From: Verrucomicrobiota bacterium
GTDB taxonomy: Bacteria; Verrucomicrobiota; Verrucomicrobiia; JADLBR01
Length of the DNA: 64,000 bases
Direction: 5' to 3'
Assembly (NCBI GenBank): GCA_029560585.1
Contig: JAKQKQ010000261.1
Coordinates: forward strand, 62,001 to 126,000
In this document: piece after piece, positions 19,116 through 33,742 of the stretch
Numbering within the stretch: position 1 is the first letter of the stretch
How the letters are laid out: each line of letters starts with the position of its first letter
Notes under the pieces: model-generated
The model's input: the letters and a program-made list of their open reading frames with translations, nothing else
What the model was told of the DNA's origin: nothing
Database searches by the model: none
Program-made: the position numbers and the translations under genes

Positions 19116-20627
19116 ATGCCAATGCGTCACTGTGCCATATTCGCCATCCTTTCCTGTGGGGCTTTTGCGGAAGCCGCGCCCACGAAGCCGAACATCATCT
19201 TTGTCCTCGCCGATGACATAGGCTACGGGGACTTCGGGTGCTATGGCGCGACGCGGATCAGGACTCCGAACCTCGATCGCCTCGCCAGCGAGGGGGTTCG
19301 GTTCACCGATGCGCACGCGGCCTCGGCGACATGCACGCCGACCCGGTACGCGTTGCTCGCCGGAGAGTATCCCTGGCGAAGGAAAGGCACGGGCATCCTG
19401 CCGGGCGATGCGGCGCTCATCATCGAACCGGGGCGCCTGACGTTGCCGTCGATGCTGAAGGCCGCGGGCTACACGACGGGAGTTGTGGGGAAATGGCATC
19501 TCGGCCTTGGCGCTGGCGCCGTGGATTGGAATGGTGACATCAAGCCGGGCCCCCTCGAGATCGGCTTCGATTACGCCTTCCTGATACCTGCGACCGGCGA
19601 TCGGGTGCCCTGCGTCTATGTGGAAAACCACCGCGTGGTGGGTCTCGATCCGGCCGACCCCATCCAGATCAGCTACGGGAAACCCGTGGGCGACGAGCCC
19701 ACGGGCAAAGCGCATCCGGAGCTGCTGAAAGTGAAACCCAGCCATGGGCACGATCAGACCATCATCAATGGCATCAGCCGGATTGGTTATATGTCGGGAG
19801 GCAAGGCGGCCCGATGGGTGGACGAGGATATCGCGGGCACCATAACGGGCAAGGCCGTCGGCTTTATCGAACGCGCGAATGGGCGGCCGTTCTTCCTCTA
19901 CTTTCCGACGCACGATGTGCACGTGCCGCGCGCCCCCAACGCGCGTTTCGTCGGAACCAGCGGTTGCGGCATCCGCGGGGATGCGGTCCAGGAGTTTGAC
20001 TGGAGCGTCGGGCAATTGATGGGGACGGTCGAGCGGCTCGGGATAGCGAAGGACACCCTTTTCATTGTCACCAGCGACAATGGCCCTGTCGTGGACGACG
20101 GTTATGCCGACGGGGCGGTGGAGAACCTTCACGGCCATACGCCCGCGGGGCCGTGGCGCGGCGGCAAGTACAGCCACTTTGAGGGGGGCACGCGCATGCC
20201 TTTCATCGCCCGCTGGCCCTCCCGAATAAGGCCCGGCGTGTCCGATGCCCTCGTCTGCCAGATCGACATGCTGGCATCGTTCGCCAGTCTCACGGGCCAG
20301 GCCCTGCCAGCCGACGCCGCACCAGACAGCTTCGACGTCCTGCCCGCGCTCTTGGGCGAATCGAAGGCCGGCCGCGATCATCTCGTCGAGCACGCCAAGG
20401 ACACGGCCCTCAGGAAGGGCCCGTGGAAATTCATACCACCCAACAAAGGTCCGAAGATACTCAGGTACACAAACATCGAATCGGGCGCGGACGACGGCCC
20501 GCAGCTCTACAACCTGGCCGAAGATGTTGGCGAGAGGCGCAACCTCGCGTCGGATCGGCCAGAACTCGTGTCCGAACTGGGCGGGCTTTTGCGGCGGTTG
20601 CACGAACGAGGAAGGAGTCGGCCCTGA
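19116..20627 (+). CDS. Secreted sulfatase (S1 family)
   Basis: 503 residues with a signal peptide (MPMRHCAIFAILSCGAFAEA). KPNIIFVLADDIGYGDFG opens the fold and CTPTR is the formylglycine motif (Cys 73), followed by YALLAGEYPWRRKGTGIL. Then come GVVGKWHLGLG and IVTSDNGPVVDDGY. The YPWRR and DWNGDIKPGPLEIGFDYAF blocks recur nearly unchanged in the sulfatase half of the fusion at 25909, so the two are close paralogues. AGGAGGT sits ahead of ATG 19116. The stop overlaps the start of the GH106-like gene as TGATG, which argues that desulfation and rhamnose removal are made together. Confidence 0.92.
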   Translation: MPMRHCAIFAILSCGAFAEAAPTKPNIIFVLADDIGYGDFGCYGATRIRTPNLDRLASEGVRFTDAHAASATCTPTRYALLAGEYPWRRKGTGILPGDAALIIEPGRLTLPSMLKAAGYTTGVVGKWHLGLGAGAVDWNGDIKPGPLEIGFDYAFLIPATGDRVPCVYVENHRVVGLDPADPIQISYGKPVGDEPTGKAHPELLKVKPSHGHDQTIINGISRIGYMSGGKAARWVDEDIAGTITGKAVGFIERANGRPFFLYFPTHDVHVPRAPNARFVGTSGCGIRGDAVQEFDWSVGQLMGTVERLGIAKDTLFIVTSDNGPVVDDGYADGAVENLHGHTPAGPWRGGKYSHFEGGTRMPFIARWPSRIRPGVSDALVCQIDMLASFASLTGQALPADAAPDSFDVLPALLGESKAGRDHLVEHAKDTALRKGPWKFIPPNKGPKILRYTNIESGADDGPQLYNLAEDVGERRNLASDRPELVSELGGLLRRLHERGRSRP

Positions 20628-23434
20628 TGGCATCGCGCGTCGGGCTCTGGTTCATCGCGATGGGATTGTCCTCGGCCGTCTGTTTTTCGGCGGATAGCCG
20701 ATTGGAATGGCCGGAGATCACGCGCGAACAGCGGCCCTGGGCGTACAACTGGTGGTTGGGCGGCGCCGTCGATCGCGACAATCTCTCGCGCGAACTCCAG
20801 CGTTACAGTGAGGCGGGCCTTGGAGGGATCCACGTCATCCCAATCTATGGTGCGAAGGGTGCCGAGACTCGCTATCTGCCGTATCTGAGTGAGGCGTGGG
20901 TGGAGATGCTGCGTTTCGCGGTGGAGGAGGGCGGGCGCCTCGGTCTGGGCGTCGACATGACCACGGGCAGCGGCTGGTGTTTCGGCGGTCCGGACATCAC
21001 GCCCGACCTGGGGAACATGGGCGCCGGCGTTATCAGGACAAACATTCCGCCCGGTGGCGTCTACAGCGGGCGCCCGGATTCGCTTGCCGCCGCCGTGGCT
21101 GTCGCGACCAACGGCCGGACCGCAGATCTCATGCGATCCACAAACAGCGCCGGGGCCATCGAGTTTCGTGCGGACGGCGGGCCGTGGGACGTGTATGCGC
21201 TCTTGGTCAAACCGACGGGGCGAAAGGTGAAGCGCGCCGCGCCGGGCGGGGAGGGGCTGATGATCAACCCGTTTTCGCCGGCGTCGATGCGCGCCTACCT
21301 GAAGGGATTCGATCGGCGCATGCCAGCGGATTCCGCCCCGAGGATCCGGGCGATGTACCACGACTCGTACGAGTATTACCATGGGGCCAAAGAATTCGAC
21401 GCGGGTTGGTCGCCCGAGTTTTTGGGCGCTTTCGCGAGCCGTCGCGGCTATCGGTTTCAGGATCACCTGCGCGAGCTTGGGGGAGGAGGGGACGCCGAGG
21501 TCGCCAATCGTATCCTTGCGGATTACCGCGAGACGCTTTCGGATCTGATGATCGAGGACGTGTTTCCCCAATGGACGCGATGGTGCCAGCGACGGGGCAT
21601 CCTCACGCGCGACCAGGCCCATGGGTCTCCGGCCAACCTCCTTGATCTGTACGCTCTCGCCGATATCCCCGAGACCGAGATGTTCGGCCGTGGCGACCGC
21701 GATCCACTGGCGTCGGGATTCGACGCGCGCTTTGGCGAGGGGGACCGCGAGCCGCTGGTCTCCAAGTTCGCGTCGTCGGCGGCACACGTCGCGGGTCATC
21801 GGCTGGTGGCCGCCGAGACGGGCACGTGGTTGGCGGAGCATTTCTGCGAAGCGCTAGAGGAGATGAAATGCCTCGTGGATCTGCTCTTCGTCTCGGGCGT
21901 CAATCACGTGGTGTACCACGGCTGCTGCTATTCGCCCGATGACGCCGCTTGGCCCGGCTGGCTTTTCTATGCCGCGACACAGATGAACCCCAGGAATACG
22001 ATATGGAGGGACGCGTCGGCGCTCAACGCGTACATCGCCCGATGCGAGTCCATTCTGCAATCGGGCGAGCCTGACAACGATGTTCTGCTGTACTGGCCGA
22101 TCCACGATCTGTGGCATCAGGCAGCCGAAAAGCCGGGCGTGCTGGATACCATCGAATGCGGTGTCCACACACGGGAATGGTTGACCGGCCAAGCGATCGG
22201 GGTTGCGGCGAGGCGAATGTGGGAACGCGGCTGGAGCTTTGACTACGTTTCCGACCGACAGCTCGCATCGGCGCAGGCAAGGGATGGCGGCATCGCGGTG
22301 GCCGGGGGCGCATACGGGGCCGTTGTCGTGCCTCCCACCACACACATGCCCATCGGGACATTGAGCCGCCTGATCGAACTCGCGCGCGGCGGGGCCACCA
22401 TCATATTCGAGGAGAGGTTGCCGATGGATGTGCCGGGCTTCGCGGATCTGGAGCGCCGCCGCGGCGAACTCGGGCGGCTGCTGGGCGAGTTGCACATCCC
22501 GAGCGGGGGAGGAACATCAGTGCGGTCGGCATCGGTCGGAAAAGGCAGGGTGCTGGTGGGTGAACTGGAGGGCGCGCTGGGCGCAGCAGGCATTGGGCGG
22601 GAGACGCTGGCGGACCCGCCGGGAGTCCGGTTCATCCGCCGGAGGCATGCGGGGGGCCGGCACTACTTCATCGCAAATCAGGGCACCGTCACCCTCGACA
22701 CGTGGTTTGCGCCCGCGAGGCCATCGGCAGCGGCCGGGTTGCTGGATCCGATGACTGGACGGGTGGATGGCGCAGCGATGTGCCATCGGGAGCGGGGGAA
22801 TGCCTTTCGGGTCCGCCTTGATCCCGGCCACTCGATCATCGTGCGCACGTTCGAAGGTGCCGGCGCAACCGTGTCGGCTCCGGTGCGCGAGTGGTTCGTC
22901 CCCGGCTTCGAGGGGGACGCCCTGCCTGGACCGTGGCGCGTGGAATTCATTTCGGGTGGGCCCGTGCTCCCCGCCGCATACGAGGCCAGAGAATTGCGTT
23001 CGTGGACCGAGAATGGAGATCCGGAGACCCCCCGGATTGGCGGCACCGCCATCTATCGCACGCGATTCGATGCCTCCGGCGAGGGTCCGTGGATCCTTGA
23101 CCTCGGGAGCGTCCGCCACAGCGCGCGCATTCGCGTCAACGGCCGCGAAGCGGGCGTTTTGTTTATGGCGCCGTATCGCGTCACTCTCGATGCGTTGCGG
23201 CCCAGGGACAACCTGCTGGAGGTGGAGGTCACCAACTTGGCTGCCAATCGGATACGCGACATGGACCAGCGCAAGATCCCGTGGCGCGTGTTCCACGACG
23301 CGAATCTCGTCAGCATCCGGTACAAACCCTTTGACGCATCGGGTTGGCCGATTCGTGAATCAGGGCTCCTTGGGCCGGTGCGGCTTTCGGCTGCTGTGCC
23401 CGCGCCTTCGCCGAGCAACCCGTCGGATAAGTGA
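20627..23434 (+). CDS. Secreted GH106-like alpha-L-rhamnosidase
   Basis: 935 residues. The signal peptide is within residues 1-22. The opening REQRPWAYNWWLGGAVD, then LSRELQRYSEAGLGGIHVIP and GLGVDMTTGSGWCFGGP, is typical of the GH106 barrel. Further blocks are ARIRAMYHDSYEYY-like text and the long SSAAHVAGHRLVAAETGTW segment. The C-terminus has a galactose-binding-like jelly roll (WILDLGSVRHSARIRVNGRE, VEVTNLAANRIRDMD), also usual in this family. GH106 enzymes release alpha-L-rhamnose from glycosides and polysaccharides. The start overlaps the sulfatase stop by one base, with GAGGAAGGAG just upstream. Length and order fit the family; activity is inferred. Confidence 0.82.
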   Translation: MASRVGLWFIAMGLSSAVCFSADSRLEWPEITREQRPWAYNWWLGGAVDRDNLSRELQRYSEAGLGGIHVIPIYGAKGAETRYLPYLSEAWVEMLRFAVEEGGRLGLGVDMTTGSGWCFGGPDITPDLGNMGAGVIRTNIPPGGVYSGRPDSLAAAVAVATNGRTADLMRSTNSAGAIEFRADGGPWDVYALLVKPTGRKVKRAAPGGEGLMINPFSPASMRAYLKGFDRRMPADSAPRIRAMYHDSYEYYHGAKEFDAGWSPEFLGAFASRRGYRFQDHLRELGGGGDAEVANRILADYRETLSDLMIEDVFPQWTRWCQRRGILTRDQAHGSPANLLDLYALADIPETEMFGRGDRDPLASGFDARFGEGDREPLVSKFASSAAHVAGHRLVAAETGTWLAEHFCEALEEMKCLVDLLFVSGVNHVVYHGCCYSPDDAAWPGWLFYAATQMNPRNTIWRDASALNAYIARCESILQSGEPDNDVLLYWPIHDLWHQAAEKPGVLDTIECGVHTREWLTGQAIGVAARRMWERGWSFDYVSDRQLASAQARDGGIAVAGGAYGAVVVPPTTHMPIGTLSRLIELARGGATIIFEERLPMDVPGFADLERRRGELGRLLGELHIPSGGGTSVRSASVGKGRVLVGELEGALGAAGIGRETLADPPGVRFIRRRHAGGRHYFIANQGTVTLDTWFAPARPSAAAGLLDPMTGRVDGAAMCHRERGNAFRVRLDPGHSIIVRTFEGAGATVSAPVREWFVPGFEGDALPGPWRVEFISGGPVLPAAYEARELRSWTENGDPETPRIGGTAIYRTRFDASGEGPWILDLGSVRHSARIRVNGREAGVLFMAPYRVTLDALRPRDNLLEVEVTNLAANRIRDMDQRKIPWRVFHDANLVSIRYKPFDASGWPIRESGLLGPVRLSAAVPAPSPSNPSDK

Positions 23435-23438
23435 CGAC

Positions 23439-24791
23439 ATGACCCATGCCTGGCAGCAGGATTCCCTCCCCATGCGACATTATCCAACCTGCGAGAATGT
23501 GGGGGGGATCGCCGGTGCGATGCTGGTGTTACTGTCGTTCATGGGGATGGCCGCGGCCCAAGAGGCCTCGCGAAATGATGTGCTGGCTTGGAAGGCGGGG
23601 CGATTCTATCTGGAGGGCCAACCATTTGCGGAGATCAGTTTCAACAAGTTCGACCTGTTTTGGGCGGTGAATGATGCCCGGCTGGCGGCAGCGAAGGAGG
23701 GGACCCGCGCGGGGCTGGACAAGGCGCTGGCCGCCCAAGAGGAAGCACTGTGCGAGATTCGTGAGATCGGCTGTCGCACCATACGGATCTTTGGCAGTCC
23801 GTGGGGCACGGTCTCGGGGGTCTATGACGATCCGGCGCAACGCGCGGAGATGTTCGCGGCGATGGACGCTGTATTGGCGATGTGCGAACGCCAAGGAGTC
23901 AAGGTCATCTATAGCCTCGGGGCCGCAGGGTTTCATGATCAGCAGCCAAGAAAGAAGAAGGTTGGTGAGGTGTCGCGCGACGATGCGACCAGGCCAGAGG
24001 GACTCTACGAACTGGTGGCGGATGCCCATTCGCGCAGCCGGACGCGCCTCTGCGCCTATATCGATGAGGTCATCGCGCGTTATCGGCACAGCAGGGCCAT
24101 CGCCATGTGGGAGATAACAAACGAGCTGACAAACCAGGCCGACATCGGAAAGCGGGAGTGGGGCCAGAGCCCGACGCTCGCGCAGGTCGCCGCCTTCTCC
24201 GATCAGGTCGCGGCGCGCATCAAGGCCGGGGATCCCATGCGGCTCGTGAGCAATGGCGGATCACACCTTCGCGAGTCCGCATGGAATCTATTCCAGCGGA
24301 AGGGGTGGAGGAAAGACTCGATGGAGGAGCATGGGAACGCCTTTGGGCTCGTCTTCGCAAAGTCCGCCGTGGATGTGATCGACATCCACTATTACGCCGT
24401 GCGAACCGGTGGCTATGAGATTGTTGGAACCGCCGGAAGGACACTGCCGCTAACGCCCTCGAGATATATGGAGTTCGCGCGCGGGTTGGGCAAAGCACTT
24501 ATTTTCGGCGAATTCGCCGCCCTGCCCAGCAAGTTCGATGGGGATAAATCGCCCGAGGCGGGATGGTTTTCGGGTTACGACGACCCGGGCGCCAAAGCCT
24601 GGGTCCAGAAGGCGGTGGATTCGGTCGTTGAGGCTGGCATCCCGCTGTCGTACTACTGGGCCTATGGTTCGGATCGGCCGATGGACCAAAACCCGAATCC
24701 GACGTATCTCGACAAGAAACGCACGCCTGCCCTGATCCAGATTATCGTCGAAGCGAACCATCGACTGAAGGCCAAGCTCGGAACGATGTGA
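23439..24791 (+). CDS. Secreted GH5-like (clan GH-A) glycoside hydrolase
   Basis: 450 residues. A signal sequence covers residues ~1-41 (core IAGAMLVLLSFMGMAAA). The TIM barrel carries RTIRIFGSP, VKVIYSLGAAG, MWEITNELTNQ with acid/base candidate Glu 229, DVIDIHYYAV, and ALIFGEFAALP with nucleophile candidate Glu 358. These are in the strand positions expected of clan A (cellulase/mannanase-like). The ATG at 23439 lies 4 bp after the stop of the GH106-like gene; an alternative ATG is at 23472. The polysaccharide cut cannot be told. It is part of the same plus-strand operon. Confidence 0.82.
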   Translation: MTHAWQQDSLPMRHYPTCENVGGIAGAMLVLLSFMGMAAAQEASRNDVLAWKAGRFYLEGQPFAEISFNKFDLFWAVNDARLAAAKEGTRAGLDKALAAQEEALCEIREIGCRTIRIFGSPWGTVSGVYDDPAQRAEMFAAMDAVLAMCERQGVKVIYSLGAAGFHDQQPRKKKVGEVSRDDATRPEGLYELVADAHSRSRTRLCAYIDEVIARYRHSRAIAMWEITNELTNQADIGKREWGQSPTLAQVAAFSDQVAARIKAGDPMRLVSNGGSHLRESAWNLFQRKGWRKDSMEEHGNAFGLVFAKSAVDVIDIHYYAVRTGGYEIVGTAGRTLPLTPSRYMEFARGLGKALIFGEFAALPSKFDGDKSPEAGWFSGYDDPGAKAWVQKAVDSVVEAGIPLSYYWAYGSDRPMDQNPNPTYLDKKRTPALIQIIVEANHRLKAKLGTM

Positions 24792-24800
24792 GGTGTAAGA

Positions 24801-25880
24801 GTGACCCCGAAAGAGCGAGTGATGGCGATCTTGGGTCGCAAGCCGGTGGACCGGATCCCGGTGGACCTCTGGCATACGCCCGAGGTGGCGGCGGCGCTGC
24901 GGGCCCATTTCGGGGCGGCGGACGATTTTGCGATGTGGCGGGCGCTGGGTCTGGACAAGGTCGTCTGGGATTTCATGGACTATCGGATGCCGGAAGGGGA
25001 TCGCGCCGGGGCGCAGTCTGGCGCCGGCGCGGAGACCGCGGGTGGGCGCACGATGTGGGGCGTGCCGCTCAAGGGAGTACAGAGCGGCCAGGCGCACTAC
25101 ATGGAGTTCGGGGCGGCACCGCTGGTGGGATACGACACAGCGGCGAGTTTGGACGACTACCCCTGGTGGCCGGAGATCGAGCGATTTGATTATGGCGCGG
25201 CTGCGGCGCTGGCGGCGCGGGCGTCGGGCGAGTTTGCCGCCATAGGGCCGTGGGTGTCGTTTTTCGAGATCTACTGCCAGCTGCGGGGCCTGGACACCGC
25301 GCTGATGGATCTGATCGAGGATCCGGACTACGTCGACGCGGTGCTGGATCGCATCGAGCACATCCAGACCGAGATGATGCGTCGCTTCTTCGCGCGCTCC
25401 GCGAAACACCTGGACCTCGTGTTCGTGAGCGACGATATCGCGGGGCAACAGAACCTGCTGATCTCGCCCGCGATGTGGCACCGGCATCTGGAACCGAGGA
25501 TGCGGCGCTGGTGCGAGCTGATCCACGGGCACGGCCTGCGCGTGTTCTATCACACGGACGGCGCGGCGCGGCCCCTCATAGGACCGTTGATCAACTGCGG
25601 CATCGACGTCCTCAATCCTATCCAGCACGTTTGTCCGGGCATGGATACCGCTGATCTTAAGCGCGAATTCGGCGACCGCGTCATCTTCCACGGGGGCATT
25701 GACAACCAGTTCGCGCTGCCGCGCGGGACGGTTGACGACGTGCGCCGCGAGACGCGCCGATGCCTGGAGACCCTGGGCGCTGGGCGCGGGGGCTACATCT
25801 GCTGCTCGTGCCACAACGCGCAGGCCGGTACTCCCGTGGAGAACATCCTGGCGATGGTGGAGACGGTGAAGGCGTGGTGA
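24801..25880 (+). CDS. Uroporphyrinogen-decarboxylase (URO-D) family protein, putative methyltransferase
   Basis: 359 residues, no signal peptide, so cytoplasmic. It has the URO-D barrel: TPKERVMAILGRKPVDRIPV at the N-terminus (the conserved 'R-P-x-D-R-x-P' start), FVSDDIAGQQNLLISPAMW, FYHTDGAARPLI, IDVLNPIQHVCPGMD, FHGGIDNQFALP and GGYICCSCHN. True HemE proteins carry other substrate-binding residues and sit in heme loci. Proteins of this type are more often corrinoid-linked methyltransferases (MtaA/MtbA-like), and the late Cys-Cys-Ser-Cys-His could bind zinc. It lies 9 bp after a glycosidase and before the fusion gene, suggesting methyl-group handling on sugars; that is inference. Start is GTG. 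Confidence 0.8.
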   Translation: MTPKERVMAILGRKPVDRIPVDLWHTPEVAAALRAHFGAADDFAMWRALGLDKVVWDFMDYRMPEGDRAGAQSGAGAETAGGRTMWGVPLKGVQSGQAHYMEFGAAPLVGYDTAASLDDYPWWPEIERFDYGAAAALAARASGEFAAIGPWVSFFEIYCQLRGLDTALMDLIEDPDYVDAVLDRIEHIQTEMMRRFFARSAKHLDLVFVSDDIAGQQNLLISPAMWHRHLEPRMRRWCELIHGHGLRVFYHTDGAARPLIGPLINCGIDVLNPIQHVCPGMDTADLKREFGDRVIFHGGIDNQFALPRGTVDDVRRETRRCLETLGAGRGGYICCSCHNAQAGTPVENILAMVETVKAW

Positions 25881-25908: not shown

Positions 25909-28900
25909 ATGATCCGTTCGCTGTTCATGTGGTTGCTGCCAGTATCCGTGATGACCACAGGCGCGCGCGGCGCTGGCCCCGATTTCGAATCGAAATATCA
26001 GGCCATCGGTTTTTCGCGCGGTGCGCCAAGATTCATGTGGTTCGCGGTGGATTCGCTCGGGCGGGGAAGGGTGGGGCAAAACCCCATATCAGAGGAGACG
26101 GATGCCGCGGGTGCGCTGCGGTTTGATGCGCGCGAGTCGGGACGATTCGCCTATGTGCAACGAGGCGTGGAGGGCAAGGAGGAGTTGGCGTGGGCCATCG
26201 ATGCCGAGGAGAGGGCGATCACCCTGCGCTCGGAGTTCGTGCCGGGGGCGCCGATCCCGCCCTTTGTGCTGGCCTTCGACCAGAAGGCGAACCACGCGAC
26301 GCTGCTTGGGATGATGGCGCCGGGCGAGAGGCGGATGTCCTTGCCGTGCGTCCTGCACATGCCGGACATGGGGACGATGCGGATCACGTGCGATGCGCCG
26401 GGCGCAGAGATCGATTACGATGCCCGGCGCCGCGTTCAGACACCGTTCGTGCGCGTGGCGTTTCCGGCCGCGACCGCAGCTCGGCCAAAGATCGCGTATC
26501 GCCTTGAGGTCGTGTCAATCTATCCCGCGATGCCGGGCATTGAGGGGCAGCCCCTGTACGATGGCTTCCGACGGGATTTCCTAAACATATTTCAGGTCAA
26601 TCCGCGGGTCGGGATGCTGGCGAACAACGCGTCGAGCGATCCGGTCACCTTCACGGTATTCAAGTATGCGGAGGTGGCTCGCCATGCGCCGCCGCTGGCC
26701 GAGGGATTGACCTGCCTCGATCTCGTTCGGATGACGCTGGACCGCTATCTTTCCGGCGCGCTGGGCTATGGCCAGAAGGGGTACGCCATGGCGCCGACCG
26801 ACGCGGACCTGATCCCGTGGCCAACGCCATGGACCACCACCGATTCGTTGCCGTCGCTGATCATCGCCGCGTGCGCCTACGCGGACGGTGCCAAAGATCC
26901 CGGGTGGGCCCGAAAGAACTATGGGAGATTGGACGCGTGGGCGCGCGAGATGATGGCACCCGATGCCGACGACGATGGACTGATCGAATACCCCGCGACG
27001 GGCAATTATGGGGATCGTCCCGCGCGCGACAAGCGGCCCTCAAACTGGTGGGACACGATCAATTTCGGTCACGAGGATGCTTACTCGAATGCGCTGGCCT
27101 ACCACGCCTGCCGGGAGTGGGCCGCGCTGGCGCGGAAACTCGGGCATGAGCCGGATGCCACGTGGGCCGAGGGCCGGGCGGAGAAGTTGCGCGCGTCGTA
27201 CGTCGCCGGCTTCCTGAATCCCGAGACGGGGGTGTTGGCCGGCTGGCGGAGCGCGGACGGGCAGTTGCACGACTACTGGTTCACCTTCGTTAACGGCGTC
27301 GCGATAGCGTACGGGTTGGTGGACGAGGCCACGGGCAACGCCATCATGGATCGGCTGTTCCAGAAGATGGCCGAGGTCGGATACACGAACTTCTCCCTTG
27401 GCCTGCCCGGTAACCTCGTTCCCATACGTAAGGGCGACTACGTGCATCACGACACCCCGCCCGAAAAGTTCGGCGAGCCGCAGCGCGAGGATGGTTCAGA
27501 CGGATTCCAGTTCTACGAAAATGGTGGGACCACCGGCTGCTATGCCTACTTCACCGTCAAGGCGCTCTATAGACTGGGCCGGATCGCAGATGCGCGCAGG
27601 ATTCTGTACCCGATGCTCGACGGCTACGCGCGAGGGGAGTTCCAGGGGTTTGGCGAAAACGGGATGTCCCGCGATTGGCGCGATTGGAAGGGAGGCTGCC
27701 ACGGCTACGAGGGGCTGCTGGTTGACAACTATTTTGCGCTGCTGGCGGTTCTGGATGATGCGGCGATGAGGCCAAACATCGTATTCATCATGGCCGACGA
27801 TCTCGGCTACAATGATCTTTCCTGTCAGGGGGCGGCCAAGATACGGACGCCGGGCATCGACCGTCTCGCCAAGGAGGGCATCCGGTTGACCGACGCGCAT
27901 ACCCCGTCTGGGCTGTGCTGCCCCAGTCGCTACGGCGTTCTGACGGGACGGTATCCGTGGCGCAGGAAGCAGACGTGCTGGGCGTCACCCGGCGCGGGAC
28001 TTTTGATTGAGCCTGGGCGCGAGACCACGGCCTCGCTACTGAAGAAAGCCGGATACACGTGTGGGATTGTTGGCAAGTGGCACCTCGGGTTCGGCGATGC
28101 GACGCGCCCATTCGACTGGAATGGGGACCTGAAGCCGGGTCCGCTCGAGGTGGGTTTCGATTATGCCTTCGTCGATATTGCCAACCGCACCGGCTGTTAC
28201 GTGGAGAATCATCGCATCGTGGGGCTGGATCCGGCGGACCCGATCAGGCACGAGGGCAGGAAGAGGGTCGGGGGTCGGGCGGCATTCTCGATGGTGAACG
28301 AGGAGAACGCCCGCGTGCTTCACGAGAAAGCCGTGGCATTCTTGGAGCTGCACGCCGGGGGGGGAGCCGGCCCATTCTATCTCCACTACGTTCCCAACAA
28401 CATCCACACGCCCCTGACGCCGAACCCCCGCTTCAAGGGCAAGAATCAATGCGGCAAGTACGGCGACTTCGTGGCGGAGCTGGACTGGTCGGTCGGGGAC
28501 ATCCTGACGACCCTTGACCGGCTCAGATTAGCTGATCGGACGTTGGTCATCTTCACCAGCGACAATGGCGGCGTTTACGAGAACGAGGGTTTTGGGGCTG
28601 GGCACCGGAGCTGCGCCCCTTTCAATGGGCAGAAGGGTGATGTCTGGGAGGGGGGCAACCGGGTGCCGTTCTTGGCGCGCTGGCCGGGGCATATCCGGGC
28701 GGGAACCACGTCGGATCGGATGCTGTGCCTTACGGACATGCTCGCAACGTTTGCGACATTGACGGGACAATCGCTCGCCGCGCAGGCGGGGCCAGACAGT
28801 CTTGATGCGTTGCCGATTCTCCTCGGGCGCGAGGGCGCGACGGATGGAAGGACGAACCTCATCATGCAGTCGGGGTCATCTAGTCTCTTTGAACGGAGGA

Positions 28901-29202
28901 AGGAAGGCCTCTGGGCCGTGCGTGAGGCGAATTGGAAGTTGGTCTTGGGGCGGGGTTCCGGATACTCGACGGTCCAGGGGGCGGAAAGAAACCCGTATCT
29001 GCGGTTCGCGGAGGTCGGCATGGTCAACAGCGACTACCTCCCTGATGGCAAGTTGAAACCTGATGCGCCGCCCATGCAGCTCTATGATTTGGACAGTGAC
29101 GCGGGTGAGAGGTGTAATGTTTTTCGTGAGCGGCCGGAGGTGGTCGATCGCCTGATGGCTTTATTTGAGAAATTGCGCGAGTCGGGGTGCAGTCGGCGCT
29201 GA
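25909..29202 (+). CDS. Fusion: secreted (alpha/alpha)6-type glycosidase domain plus sulfatase domain
   Basis: 1097 residues in one frame. Signal peptide at residues 1-22. Residues ~25-250 are a beta-rich domain and ~260-618 a helical toroid-like domain (PTDADLIPWPTPWTTTDSLP, DADDDGLIEYPATG, NWWDTINFGHEDAYSNALAY, YENGGTTGCYAYF), like glycogen-debranching/GH63-type glycosidases. At residue 620, with no linker, a sulfatase begins: MRPNIVFIMADDLGYNDL, formylglycine motif CCPSR (Cys 670), GIVGKWHLGFG and VIFTSDNGG. The sulfatase half has no signal of its own and starts with ATG at 27766, as if two genes had merged. It is closely similar in sequence to the sulfatase at 19116. A single exported bifunctional enzyme is the simplest reading. 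Confidence 0.85.
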   Translation: MIRSLFMWLLPVSVMTTGARGAGPDFESKYQAIGFSRGAPRFMWFAVDSLGRGRVGQNPISEETDAAGALRFDARESGRFAYVQRGVEGKEELAWAIDAEERAITLRSEFVPGAPIPPFVLAFDQKANHATLLGMMAPGERRMSLPCVLHMPDMGTMRITCDAPGAEIDYDARRRVQTPFVRVAFPAATAARPKIAYRLEVVSIYPAMPGIEGQPLYDGFRRDFLNIFQVNPRVGMLANNASSDPVTFTVFKYAEVARHAPPLAEGLTCLDLVRMTLDRYLSGALGYGQKGYAMAPTDADLIPWPTPWTTTDSLPSLIIAACAYADGAKDPGWARKNYGRLDAWAREMMAPDADDDGLIEYPATGNYGDRPARDKRPSNWWDTINFGHEDAYSNALAYHACREWAALARKLGHEPDATWAEGRAEKLRASYVAGFLNPETGVLAGWRSADGQLHDYWFTFVNGVAIAYGLVDEATGNAIMDRLFQKMAEVGYTNFSLGLPGNLVPIRKGDYVHHDTPPEKFGEPQREDGSDGFQFYENGGTTGCYAYFTVKALYRLGRIADARRILYPMLDGYARGEFQGFGENGMSRDWRDWKGGCHGYEGLLVDNYFALLAVLDDAAMRPNIVFIMADDLGYNDLSCQGAAKIRTPGIDRLAKEGIRLTDAHTPSGLCCPSRYGVLTGRYPWRRKQTCWASPGAGLLIEPGRETTASLLKKAGYTCGIVGKWHLGFGDATRPFDWNGDLKPGPLEVGFDYAFVDIANRTGCYVENHRIVGLDPADPIRHEGRKRVGGRAAFSMVNEENARVLHEKAVAFLELHAGGGAGPFYLHYVPNNIHTPLTPNPRFKGKNQCGKYGDFVAELDWSVGDILTTLDRLRLADRTLVIFTSDNGGVYENEGFGAGHRSCAPFNGQKGDVWEGGNRVPFLARWPGHIRAGTTSDRMLCLTDMLATFATLTGQSLAAQAGPDSLDALPILLGREGATDGRTNLIMQSGSSSLFERRKEGLWAVREANWKLVLGRGSGYSTVQGAERNPYLRFAEVGMVNSDYLPDGKLKPDAPPMQLYDLDSDAGERCNVFRERPEVVDRLMALFEKLRESGCSRR

Positions 29203-29214
29203 GCAAAGAAGGAC

Positions 29215-30564
29215 ATGAACCAGCTCAGACATGGGGTCAGCCTGCTGCTCGGACTGATGGCTTGGGTGCAAGTCGGGTCGGCAGAGGCCCAGTGGCGCGC
29301 TGGAATCGCGAGGCAGGATATCACGCCCGCCGGGTCGATCTGGATGGGTGGCTACGCATCGCGCGATCATTCATCGGAGGGCGTGCTGCAGCCACTATCG
29401 GCGAAGGCCCTGATTTTAGAGGACCAGCAGGGCAGCCGTATGGCCTTCGTGTGCATGGATCTCATCGGTGTCGATTTCCGGTTTTGCGAGGCGATCGGGC
29501 GCCGGACTCTCGCCTCCACGGGCATCGCGCGCGAGCGCATCGTGTTCAACAGCTCGCACACGCACTGTGGACCGGTGGTCGCGGGGGTCACGCCCATTGT
29601 CTATGATCTCGATCGCCAGCAGCAGGCTGTGGTCGACGCGTACGCCGAGAAACTGAAGGATCAACTCGTCATCCTGATCGAGACGGCGGTGAAGGATTTG
29701 CGCCCCGCTGATCTTTCGTATGGCGAGGGCAAGGCCACGTTCGGTGCAAATCGCCGCGCCATGCGCGGCAAGAAGGATCCGAGACCTGATCCGACGGCCC
29801 CCTGCGACCATGGCGTGCCCGTGATGGCGGTGCGGGATTGCCGGGGTGAACTGCACGCGGTGCTGTTTGGGTATGCCTGCCACGGCACGACAACAGGCAT
29901 CTACCAGATCAACGGCGACTATCCGGGCTATGCCCAGGTCGCCATCGAAACCGGACATCGGGGTGTGACGGCGCTTTTCATGGCCGGCTGCGGAGGAGAC
30001 ATCAACCCATATCCCCGCGGCGAGATCGCCCTTACCGGACAGCACGGCCAAGCCCTGGCCGCCGCCGTCGAGGCGGTTTTAAGCGGTCCGATGCGCCCCT
30101 TGCGCGGCCCGCTCCACATTGCCTGTGAGCGCATCGAGCTGAAACTTGCCGATCCACCGGGCAGAGAGGAACTCGAACAGGCCCTGAAAGACAAGAGCGT
30201 CTATAGGCAGCGACTGGCCAGGCACCTGCTGGCGGAGTTATCGGCGGGTCGTCCGTTGGCCTCTTCCTGTCCTTGCACGGTTCAGGTTGCGCGCTTCGGC
30301 GAGGATCTGGCGATGATCGCCATGCCCGGCGAGCCGGTGATCGACTATGCCTTGCGGTTGCGCAGGGAGCTCTCGGGTCAAAGTGTCTGGGTGCCCGGTT
30401 ACTGCAATGAGATCTTCGCCTATCTGCCCACGGAGCGCGTGCTGAAAGAAGGTGGCTACGAAGGGGGCGAGGCCATGGTCTACTTCGGCTTATGCGGCCC
30501 CTTCCAGCCGGGTCTGGAACAGAAGATCATCGATGCGGTCAAACGTCTGGCCGCCCAGAGATAG
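29215..30564 (+). CDS. Secreted neutral-ceramidase-like fold protein (copy 3)
   Basis: 449 residues with a signal peptide (QLRHGVSLLLGLMAWVQVGSAEA). IARQDITPAGSIWMGGYASR opens the domain; then come FNSSHTHCGPVV with the His-x-His, FGYACHGTTTG with a further likely zinc His, FMAGCGGDINPYP, and a late MPGEPVIDYAL and EIFAYLPTERV. This is the closest of the four copies to real ceramidases, but the nucleophile Ser of GDVSPN is replaced by Asn (GDINP). The ATG is preceded by AGAAGGA. It sits 12 bp after the fusion gene and 6 bp before the next glycosidase, so it belongs to the same operon. Confidence 0.82.
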   Translation: MNQLRHGVSLLLGLMAWVQVGSAEAQWRAGIARQDITPAGSIWMGGYASRDHSSEGVLQPLSAKALILEDQQGSRMAFVCMDLIGVDFRFCEAIGRRTLASTGIARERIVFNSSHTHCGPVVAGVTPIVYDLDRQQQAVVDAYAEKLKDQLVILIETAVKDLRPADLSYGEGKATFGANRRAMRGKKDPRPDPTAPCDHGVPVMAVRDCRGELHAVLFGYACHGTTTGIYQINGDYPGYAQVAIETGHRGVTALFMAGCGGDINPYPRGEIALTGQHGQALAAAVEAVLSGPMRPLRGPLHIACERIELKLADPPGREELEQALKDKSVYRQRLARHLLAELSAGRPLASSCPCTVQVARFGEDLAMIAMPGEPVIDYALRLRRELSGQSVWVPGYCNEIFAYLPTERVLKEGGYEGGEAMVYFGLCGPFQPGLEQKIIDAVKRLAAQR

Positions 30565-30570
30565 GCGCTG

Positions 30571-31800
30571 ATGAGGGCAAGCTGGATTTCGGCAATGATA
30601 GTTCTCGCGGCCGGGGTGGTGGGATGGCCCGTCCGCGCGGTCGCGGGCATCGTTGTACGTGACGGCCAATTCGTTCAACCCGGTGGCAGGGTGTTATTGC
30701 CGCGTGGGTTCAATTACATCCGTCTCTATCCTGGACGGAGCCACGACACTTTCGATCCCGAACAGTACGATCCGGCTGCGGCGGAGAGAGCGATGCGACG
30801 GTGGAGGGCGGACAAATTCAACGTCGTGCGCGTATTCATCAATACTGCGGCCCATGTGCCCGGCACGATCGCACAGAAGGAGGGCCGCGGTTTGTCGGGG
30901 ACGTATGTGGCGAACATTGCCGATTTCCTGGCGCGCGCGCGTCAGAATGAGATCGGGGTAATGCTTTGCACCGAATCTTTTCCGCGGGTGGCGCCGTACA
31001 GCGATGGATTGCGCAAACCCGGGCCGATGGTAAGCGCGGCCAACGCGGCCTATCTTGAGGCCGGGCATGTCAGGGCAAAGGCCCAGTTTCTCAAGGACCT
31101 TATTGGCGCACTCCACTTGGCGCGTCCGGGATGCCTCGATGCCATCTTCTCGTATGATCTGCAAAATGAATTCTGTTTTCATGGGGGTCCCCCCTTCACG
31201 CTCGATGCTGGCTCGTTTGTTGCATTGGATGGCAAGGCCTATGCGTTGCCGGGGCGGAGGCAGGATCTCGCCGATGGTGCGGCCATCCACTTCATTGACC
31301 GGATGGCCGACGCGATTCACGGGGTGCACGCCGGTGCCCTCGTGAGCGCGAGCGTCTTCACGTATGCCGCCGTGGGTCGTGTTGGCCCCGGGGATTTCGG
31401 CATCAAGAAGGCCGAGTGGCAGAATCGGATCCCGTTTCGTCCTCTGGCCATCCTGAGATCGAAGGCGGACTTTTTGGACCTTCACTTCTATCCAGCAGAT
31501 GCCAAAGGGTGGGAGAGGGATCTAGCTTCGGTGGAGTTTGACGAGGTCCGGAAGCTGGCGCAGGAACTGGGCAAACCTCTATTGGTTGGCGAGTTTGGTG
31601 GTTTCAAGCGAATGTTGCAGACACCCGAGTCCGCGGCTGTGTGGATGGGCGAACTGGCCGGGCGGTTTGAGGGACGTGGCTTCGCGGGCTGGCTCTATTG
31701 GACTTACGATACCCATGAGCAGGGCGACGAACTGTGGCACGCATGCGAGCGGGATGGGATGATCTACGGCCAACTCAAGCGTGCGCTTGGGTTTCGGTGA
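30571..31800 (+). CDS. Secreted GH5-like (clan GH-A) glycoside hydrolase
   Basis: 409 residues. The signal peptide is MRASWISAMIVLAAGVVGWPVRAVA. The barrel begins FVQPGGRVLLPRGFNYIRLYP. It carries FNVVRVFINTA, IFSYDLQNEFCF with acid/base candidate Glu 200, FLDLHFYPAD, PLLVGEFGGFK with nucleophile candidate Glu 341, and GWLYWTYDT. These positions match clan GH-A. It differs from the GH5-like protein at 23439 and is not a simple duplicate. It lies 6 bp downstream of a ceramidase-like gene and 28 bp upstream of a sulfatase, within one transcription unit by spacing. Confidence 0.82.
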   Translation: MRASWISAMIVLAAGVVGWPVRAVAGIVVRDGQFVQPGGRVLLPRGFNYIRLYPGRSHDTFDPEQYDPAAAERAMRRWRADKFNVVRVFINTAAHVPGTIAQKEGRGLSGTYVANIADFLARARQNEIGVMLCTESFPRVAPYSDGLRKPGPMVSAANAAYLEAGHVRAKAQFLKDLIGALHLARPGCLDAIFSYDLQNEFCFHGGPPFTLDAGSFVALDGKAYALPGRRQDLADGAAIHFIDRMADAIHGVHAGALVSASVFTYAAVGRVGPGDFGIKKAEWQNRIPFRPLAILRSKADFLDLHFYPADAKGWERDLASVEFDEVRKLAQELGKPLLVGEFGGFKRMLQTPESAAVWMGELAGRFEGRGFAGWLYWTYDTHEQGDELWHACERDGMIYGQLKRALGFR

Positions 31801-31828
31801 AAGCCATGGCAGCATCGGTGGCGTGAGG

Positions 31829-33742
31829 ATGACGAAAGCAAGGTTGTCCGCCCTGACAGTCATGGCGGCAGCGGTGGTCGGATGCAGCTCGGCGGAGGGT
31901 GGTGGCAATGCGGGGCCCAATTTCGTCATGATCTTCATAGACGATATGGGGTATGGGGACATCGGGCCCTTTGGTGCGACGAAACAGAAGACGCCCAATC
32001 TGGATCGGATGGCGCGGGAGGGGGTGCGGATGACGAGTTTCTATGCTGCCCCGGTCTGTTCTGTTTCACGCGCACAGCTGATGACGGGATGCTATGGCGC
32101 GAGGATTTCGGTGCCCGGCGTGTATCCGCCGGGCAACAAGAGCGGGTTGAATCCCGATGAGCACACGATTGCCGAAAGATTGAAGGAGCGAGGCTACGCC
32201 ACGGCGTGCATTGGCAAGTGGCACCTGGGCGACCAGCCAGTATTCCTGCCGACGCGCCAGGGGTTCGATCGGTATCTCGGAATCCCGTATTCCAACGACA
32301 TGCAGAAGAAATCGACCGAGACCGGCGAAAAGGTCGTGCCGCTCGTGCGCGATGAAAAGGTCATCGAATTGCTGACGGAAGAGGCGCAAGGCCGCATCGA
32401 GGAGAGGTACACGGAGGAAGCCATCGACTTCATCCGGGCCAACAGGGGGCGCCCTTTCTTCCTCTATCTTCCGCACACGGCGGTGCACACGCCGATTCAC
32501 CCCGGGGCGGCCTTTGCCGGGAAGTCTGCCAACGGGCGTTTCGGTGATTGGGTGGAAGAGGTCGACTGGAGCACCGGGCGCATCCTGGATACCTTGAGGG
32601 AACTGAATTTGGACAAGGGGACCCTGGTGATGTTCTCGAGCGACAATGGGCCGTGGCTGATCAAAGGGGCGGATGGCGGGAGCGCGGGACCCTTGCGCGG
32701 CGGCAAGGGAAGCACTTGGGAGGGTGGCGTCCGGGTGCCCACCGTCGTGTGGTGGCCGGGGCGGATCCCGGCGGGGACCACATGCGATGCGGTGGCGGGG
32801 ACGATTGACGTGCTGCCAACCTTCGTGGCATTGGCCGGGGGTCAGGTGCCGCCCGAACCGACCATCGATGGTAGGGACATCTCGGCATTGTTCTTCGGGG
32901 GGACCCGGGAGTCGCCCCGCGAGGCGCACTATTATTTTGCGGGATACAATCTTCAGGCGGTGAGGCAGGGGCCGTGGAAACTCGCCATCGCGCCGCAGCC
33001 CGAGACAATGGGAAAGAAAACGGCGGCCGATGCCGCGGGGAAGGAACCACGACTTTACAACCTCGATGTGGAAATAGGCGAGCGGACGAATGTCGCGGAC
33101 AAGCATCCCGAGATCGTGGCCCGGCTCCAGAAACTGATTGAGACTATGGGCGCGGAGATTGGGGGAAAGAACCCCAGGGCGCGGCGCCCGGCGGGGGAGG
33201 TCGCCGATCCGCGGACGCTCTATGCGTCGGAGGGGGACCATGTGCGGCGCAAGTCGGGGAAGGGCGAGCTGGGGGTTGGCGATCTGAGTTCACTGAAGGC
33301 GGGTGACACGCTGGCCGCGGGGAGCGCGCCGCAGGTGGGGAATGTGCCTTTCGAAATCTCCTGCACGGTGGATTCCAAACAGCGGGACGCGGTCCTCATA
33401 GCGCATGGGGGCACCGCCGTGGGTTACGCCTTGCACATCAGGGGAGGGCGCATTGCTTTCGCCGTTCGGGCGGGCGGCGGCGATGCCGTCGCCGAGGTGA
33501 TCGCGCCCGAGTCTGTTGAGGGTCCGGTGCGGGTCGCCGTCGCGCTGGCCGCCGATGGCGCCATGACCCTCCGCCTGAACGGGAAGGTCGTCGCCTCGGG
33601 GAGATCGGCCGGGCTGATCCGTCGCCAGCCGCAGGAGGATTTCTGCGTCGGGCACGACGGTGGAAAACCGCTCACGCAGTATTCGGGCCGGAGACCATTT
33701 GAGGGCACGATCAGCGATATTGAGATCCGAACGAAACCGTGA
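31829..33742 (+). CDS. Sulfatase, predicted lipoprotein, with C-terminal LamG-like domain
   Basis: 637 residues. The N-terminus ALTVMAAAVVGCSS ends in a plausible lipobox (Val-Val-Gly-Cys, Cys 19), so membrane-anchored export is likely. The sulfatase domain starts PNFVMIFIDDMGYGDIG. The formylglycine site reads CSVSR (Cys 77), with Val where Pro or Ala is usual, followed by AQLMTGCYGAR. CIGKWHLG and FSSDNGPWL are present. Residues ~480-635 add a beta-sandwich (LGVGDLSSLKAGDTLAAGSA, FEISCTVDSKQRDAVLIAHG, MTLRLNGKVVASGRSAGLI) similar to LamG-type additions on sulfatases. ATG at 31829 is chosen; a GTG six bases earlier is possible. Last intact gene of the long plus-strand run. Confidence 0.85.
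   Translation: MTKARLSALTVMAAAVVGCSSAEGGGNAGPNFVMIFIDDMGYGDIGPFGATKQKTPNLDRMAREGVRMTSFYAAPVCSVSRAQLMTGCYGARISVPGVYPPGNKSGLNPDEHTIAERLKERGYATACIGKWHLGDQPVFLPTRQGFDRYLGIPYSNDMQKKSTETGEKVVPLVRDEKVIELLTEEAQGRIEERYTEEAIDFIRANRGRPFFLYLPHTAVHTPIHPGAAFAGKSANGRFGDWVEEVDWSTGRILDTLRELNLDKGTLVMFSSDNGPWLIKGADGGSAGPLRGGKGSTWEGGVRVPTVVWWPGRIPAGTTCDAVAGTIDVLPTFVALAGGQVPPEPTIDGRDISALFFGGTRESPREAHYYFAGYNLQAVRQGPWKLAIAPQPETMGKKTAADAAGKEPRLYNLDVEIGERTNVADKHPEIVARLQKLIETMGAEIGGKNPRARRPAGEVADPRTLYASEGDHVRRKSGKGELGVGDLSSLKAGDTLAAGSAPQVGNVPFEISCTVDSKQRDAVLIAHGGTAVGYALHIRGGRIAFAVRAGGGDAVAEVIAPESVEGPVRVAVALAADGAMTLRLNGKVVASGRSAGLIRRQPQEDFCVGHDGGKPLTQYSGRRPFEGTISDIEIRTKP

Follow-up and report, generated by a model that had tools for sequence, protein, structure and literature searches.

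Does the reading frame at 25909-29202 (+) encode one exported protein with two enzyme domains, or have two coupled genes been run together by an error, and what would such a protein act on? The frame lies in a 64,000-nucleotide stretch (the window) of contig JAKQKQ010000261.1 from a Verrucomicrobiota bacterium, which a named relative of the same genus (isolate SJ186) places near Verrucomicrobiia. It runs from ATG to stop over 1097 aa with zero internal stops, as the preliminary description had stated. Sequence, Pfam matches, homologue ends, structural modelling and a check of individual residues all indicate that a glycosidase half and a sulfatase half are both complete within it. The glycosidase half (residues 1-618, 25909-27762, +) comprises a beta-sandwich followed by an (alpha/alpha)6-type catalytic domain, as judged from the model, fold matches, Pfam matches in relatives and 79 public homologous loci. 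It opens with a leader (signal) peptide, MIRSLFMWLLPVSVMTTGARGA, read by eye at about residues 1-22 (25909-25974, +). The pLDDT is below 50 over residues 1-20, and low values are usual over leader peptides. The S1 sulfatase half (residues 620-1097, 27766-29199, +) has no leader of its own and is S1_15-like, on the basis of Pfam, its nearest solved structures and orthologues of 67-74% identity.

A model of the glycosidase half (pLDDT 88, pTM 0.90) places the beta-sandwich at about residues 26-205 and the helical domain at 215-617, in agreement with the (alpha/alpha)6-type domain reaching to about residue 618 that had been described behind the leader. Fold matches in the PDB were (alpha/alpha)6 glycosidases of families GH63, GH78, GH116, GH94 and GH52 at 8-13% identity, with TM-scores of only 0.40-0.45 and with GH63, GH78 and GH116 structures scoring alike. 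A PDB sequence search found no convincing relative for this half, and an NCBIfam search gave no family name. The Pfam model Bac_rhamnosid6H matches the fusion protein with 22.8-24.2 bits, just under its cut-off of 24.5, and an MGH1-like model matches equally; the same rhamnosidase model was found in 15 of 22 relatives, above the cut-off in several. In the fold of its catalytic domain, and distantly by Pfam, the fusion protein resembles GH78 alpha-L-rhamnosidases and GH63 YgjK, at 8-13% identity and under the family cut-off. The carboxylates D382, D390 and E601 of this half are invariant.

The natural end of the glycosidase was located by aligning homologues through the conserved LLAVLDD. At 76 of the 79 public loci its last residue lies 1-24 aa beyond the matched region; of the other three loci, two are fused and one is truncated where its contig ends. 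Ends in further genomes fall likewise 1-24 aa past the matched region, and the glycosidase of the same-genus genome G001 is unfused. In the protein studied here the junction is Ala619-Met620 (27763-27768, +), with the ATG for Met620 at 27766; its placement follows from the sequence, the homologue ends, the model and its uniqueness in the genome. In a full-length model (mean pLDDT 70, sulfatase half of low confidence, domain packing left uninterpreted) the final glycosidase helix ends at residue 619 and the first sulfatase strand begins at 623. Since the two nearly abut, a linker appears to be absent, in line with the linkerless junction proposed earlier, with the reservation that the sulfatase half of this model is poor.

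The sulfatase half matches Pfam Sulfatase over residues 622-953 (E 1e-45, 156.7 bits against a cut-off of 25). Its active site carries the formylglycine motif C-C-P-S-R (residues 670-674, 27916-27930, +), in which C, P and R are invariant in the sulfatase alignment. Residues D630, D631, C670, R674, K723, H725, H833, D885, N886 and K909 are identical across seven aligned sulfatases, so that the description of a full sulfatase from residue 620 with a CCPSR motif holds for every catalytic residue checked. The genome has 34 matches over the cut-off to PF03781, the candidate FGE domain. A 3472-aa frame on its contig C111 contains two FGE-type domains.

Among solved structures, the top sequence matches of this half are S1_15 enzymes, including BT3333, BT1624 and the carrageenan sulfatases S1_15A and S1_15B. 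The S1_15 galacto-6-O-sulfatases BT3333 and BT1624 of Bacteroides thetaiotaomicron, the best of these matches, are similar over the full length and have the catalytic residues in common with the fused sulfatase; they are themselves unfused. They act on 6-sulfated Gal/GalNAc via an Asp-Arg pair and a His (PMC6994673, PMC10154612). In our alignment this galacto-6-sulfate recognition triad is not kept: the fused sulfatase and four orthologues have an Asn-Arg pair and lack the His-bearing insertion. For this comparison the published D173/R174/H225 were mapped to the PDB chain by eye from the alignment, which has an offset of two at the D-R pair. The substrate is therefore probably something other than galacto-6-sulfate, and six-sulfated galactose, considered as a candidate, was dropped because the triad is not conserved. 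By its sequence, the enzyme is an S1_15-like sulfatase whose specificity has probably shifted.

The nearest sulfatases to this half are orthologues in other genomes, 67-74% identical. Those in G007, G016 and G023 stand alone, each with its own leader, and the one in G039 is fused behind another sulfatase. The latter frame (L044, contig C250, 7333-11202) joins two different sulfatases by a short Gly/Ser-type stretch, the second being the 74% orthologue. Within the window, the sulfatase at 19116-20627 (+) is S1_15-like by Pfam and alignment, has a leader and retains both the D-R pair and the His-bearing insertion. It had been called a close paralogue with a normal signal peptide; a leader-bearing paralogue it is, but not a close one, with an identity of 43% (tblastn) or 51% (alignment) to the fused sulfatase. 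A leader-like stretch precedes the PN motif in all 24 other sulfatases of this genome that were read, and the fused sulfatase alone is without one, which bears out the earlier remark on its missing signal peptide. More than 150 sulfatase-like matches are listed for the genome. Two of them are joined to other domains in frames that run off the stretch fetched: ThuA-sulfatase-HEAT-F5/8C-DUF6807 (L135, contig C236) and sulfatase-nucleoside hydrolase (L136, contig C177).

Directly upstream of the fusion lies a URO-D/MtaA-CmuA-like gene (24801-25880, +; Pfam). Its gene order with the glycosidase is shared with G023, where a 71% identical gene stands just before the glycosidase. Weaker relatives of this gene occur at L059 and L123, and a link to methylated sugars is conceivable. 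The same gene run includes a frame with a GH106 alpha-L-rhamnosidase match (20423-23434, +), whose true start is probably after 20627. This frame and that at 22767-24791 overlap by 668 bases, and both listed starts are probably too early. The downstream run (29215-33742) encodes a ceramidase-like protein, a protein with a weak likeness to GH5 and a sulfatase whose C-terminal part gives a weak LamG-like match. Across the 81 glycosidase loci, GH106-like frames occur in the flanks of 10, and a sulfatase occurs in the flanks covered at 14, one of these being fused. At three loci from Lentisphaerae-labelled MAGs (L062, L064 and L065) the unfused glycosidase is preceded by an S1_15-like sulfatase that shares 40-41% identity with the fused one.

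Fusions of the same glycosidase family were also found in other genomes. In G023 a SASA-type esterase is fused at the glycosidase end that matches the junction side here. A 1858-aa frame of the Akkermansiaceae MAG LJ-7-9m_bin-1240 (L058, 2631-8207) encodes the glycosidase, 67% identical to ours, followed in the same frame by a sulfatase, as here; it differs in having a Pro/Ala linker, a different sulfatase subfamily and added calcineurin-like metallophosphoesterase and type I phosphodiesterase domains. This chain would contain four putative enzymes. In L048 (G185, contig C22, 513-4049; 1179 aa) a GH20 hexosaminidase is fused in front of the glycosidase. At L061 an N-extension of 334 residues resembles untranslated frame and was left out of the fusion count. 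In a tree of 81 rows, four fusions fall on separate branches and four changes are needed, with moderate branch support (84) near our genome and with all cases drawn from metagenome assemblies. A single shared origin of the fusions here and in L058 is disfavoured, as the sulfatase subfamilies differ and L058 has a linker. Relatives therefore do not always keep the two domains apart, since L058 joins a glycosidase to a sulfatase independently; among the genomes searched, no other has this exact pair in fused form.

Could the frame itself be an artefact? A base-calling or assembly indel might have joined what are really two coupled genes that overlap by the four bases ATGA, with a glycosidase that terminates a few residues beyond LDD and a sulfatase that begins at Met620. 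A TGA in the +1 frame does overlap the junction ATG, so that inserting a single base into GCGGCG would suffice to convert such a pair into the frame seen here. Four-base overlaps of this type are seen between sulfatase and glycosidase in L062 (a stop-start overlap) and between the glycosidase and a GH99-like gene in G001, and the genome is a 336-contig assembly. Such a sulfatase would, however, be leaderless, unlike its stand-alone orthologues and the 24 other sulfatases read in this genome, and the glycosidase end carries fusions in other genomes too, which makes an indel unlikely. A chimeric contig, with unrelated genome pieces misjoined at 27766, is very improbable. The draft state of the assembly and an estimated contamination of 4% would allow it, but the junction is in frame and coincides exactly with the borders of the two domains, GC and GC3 are similar to its left and right with no GC step, and the upstream URO-D order is common with G023. 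A misjoin through a repeat is ruled out: in the 7.06 Mb genome the DNA across the junction is single-copy and has no near-identical repeat, and elsewhere it matches only sulfatase starts, weakly and at about 69% identity.

It is also possible, at rather low probability, that the fusion is real but that its halves are independent, sharing one leader while each acts on its own, perhaps unrelated, substrate. The varied partners of other sulfatases in this genome would fit this, as would the frequent gene fusion and rearrangement in sulfatase-rich planctomycetes (PMC4807772) and the location of the orthologues of the two halves on different contigs in both G039 and G023. Against it, sulfatases and further hydrolases that remove decorations recur as neighbours or fusion partners of this glycosidase, and the sulfatase retains all its catalytic residues. 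A genuine gene fusion giving one exported two-enzyme protein is the probable explanation, and is favoured over a frame error by the homologue ends, the leader-bearing orthologues and the leaders of the other 24 sulfatases. In this respect the preliminary description, which had proposed a glycosidase joined to a leaderless sulfatase, is well supported, and the product is probably exported as one enzyme.

In the sequence, the glycosidase domain is complete to its natural C-terminus and is followed by a complete S1 core minus only the leader. So precise a joint suggests a deletion that took out the glycosidase stop and the sulfatase leader together. That two operon neighbours merged in this way, as had been suggested, is plausible to the extent that several relatives carry a sulfatase next to the unfused glycosidase, but none turned up with the 67-74% orthologue in that position. 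The glycosidase leader would then export both domains, and an FGE would convert Cys670 to formylglycine. The substrate would be a sulfated glycan, probably with rhamnose in it, whose terminal sugar may be desulfated by the sulfatase and then, once bare, removed by the (alpha/alpha)6 domain. By analogy, such strip-then-cut action on one terminal sugar of a sulfated glycan is the most likely mode of action. In P36 from Formosa agariphila KMM 3901, a terminal rhamnose is first desulfated by the S1_25 domain and next cut off by the GH78 in the same chain (PMC8511951), and in a lambda-carrageenan cascade S1_15B desulfates the terminal galactose, which GH110B then removes (PMC12549532).

As to the substrate, a sulfated rhamnose-containing glycan is our best guess, because GH106 is encoded in the gene run and GH106-like frames recur in the flanks of the family. 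The indication of rhamnose is drawn from neighbouring genes and distant similarity, and because the S1_15 recognition residues are not conserved the guess at the substrate is weak.

Hybrids of this general kind have been described before, contrary to the initial impression that the pairing was undescribed. P36 is a biochemically characterised GH78|S1_25 hybrid for which both activities have been shown (PMC8511951). Like the protein here, it has an S1 sulfatase in the same chain as a glycosidase of (alpha/alpha)6 type, and it acts in consecutive steps on ulvan oligosaccharides. P36 is a GH78/S1_25 protein of a marine Bacteroidota, whereas ours pairs an unassigned glycosidase family with an S1_15-like sulfatase, both of predicted activity. 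Among PVC bacteria, fusions of S1_15 with GH29, S1_7 with GH10 and S1_7 with GH32 have been reported (PMC6388578). Of these, PDESU_05015 (Kiritimatiellales strain F1) and RRSWK_03833 (Rhodopirellula rubra SWK7) are S1_15 sulfatase-glycosidase fusions as here, but with a GH29 fucosidase as partner and known only from annotation. Many multi-domain sulfatases with GH domains occur in planctomycetes (PMC4807772). Since glycosidase-sulfatase hybrids are already described, no new kind of system is opened; what appears to be new, as far as searched, is which partners are combined and that one uncharacterised glycosidase family has been fused repeatedly and independently.

We tentatively raise the possibility that this widely distributed, uncharacterised (alpha/alpha)6 glycosidase family (Verrucomicrobiota, Planctomycetota, Acidobacteriota, Bacteroidota) is a repeated independent docking point for decoration removers (a sulfatase, an esterase, a sulfatase with phosphoesterases). 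Different lineages would thereby have built their own strip-then-cut enzymes, each in a single chain, for rhamnose-rich glycans bearing different decorations. The sulfatase here might then belong to a clade in which the S1_15 recognition loop has been lost, and act on a new sulfated sugar. Fusion partners reveal which decorations a glycosidase meets, and the four separate fusions offer a direct, testable hint that this family takes off terminal sugars lying close to sulfate, acetyl or phosphate groups. Such fusions offer natural two-step biocatalysts, and the loop-deleted sulfatase clade would show how S1_15-type enzymes change specificity.
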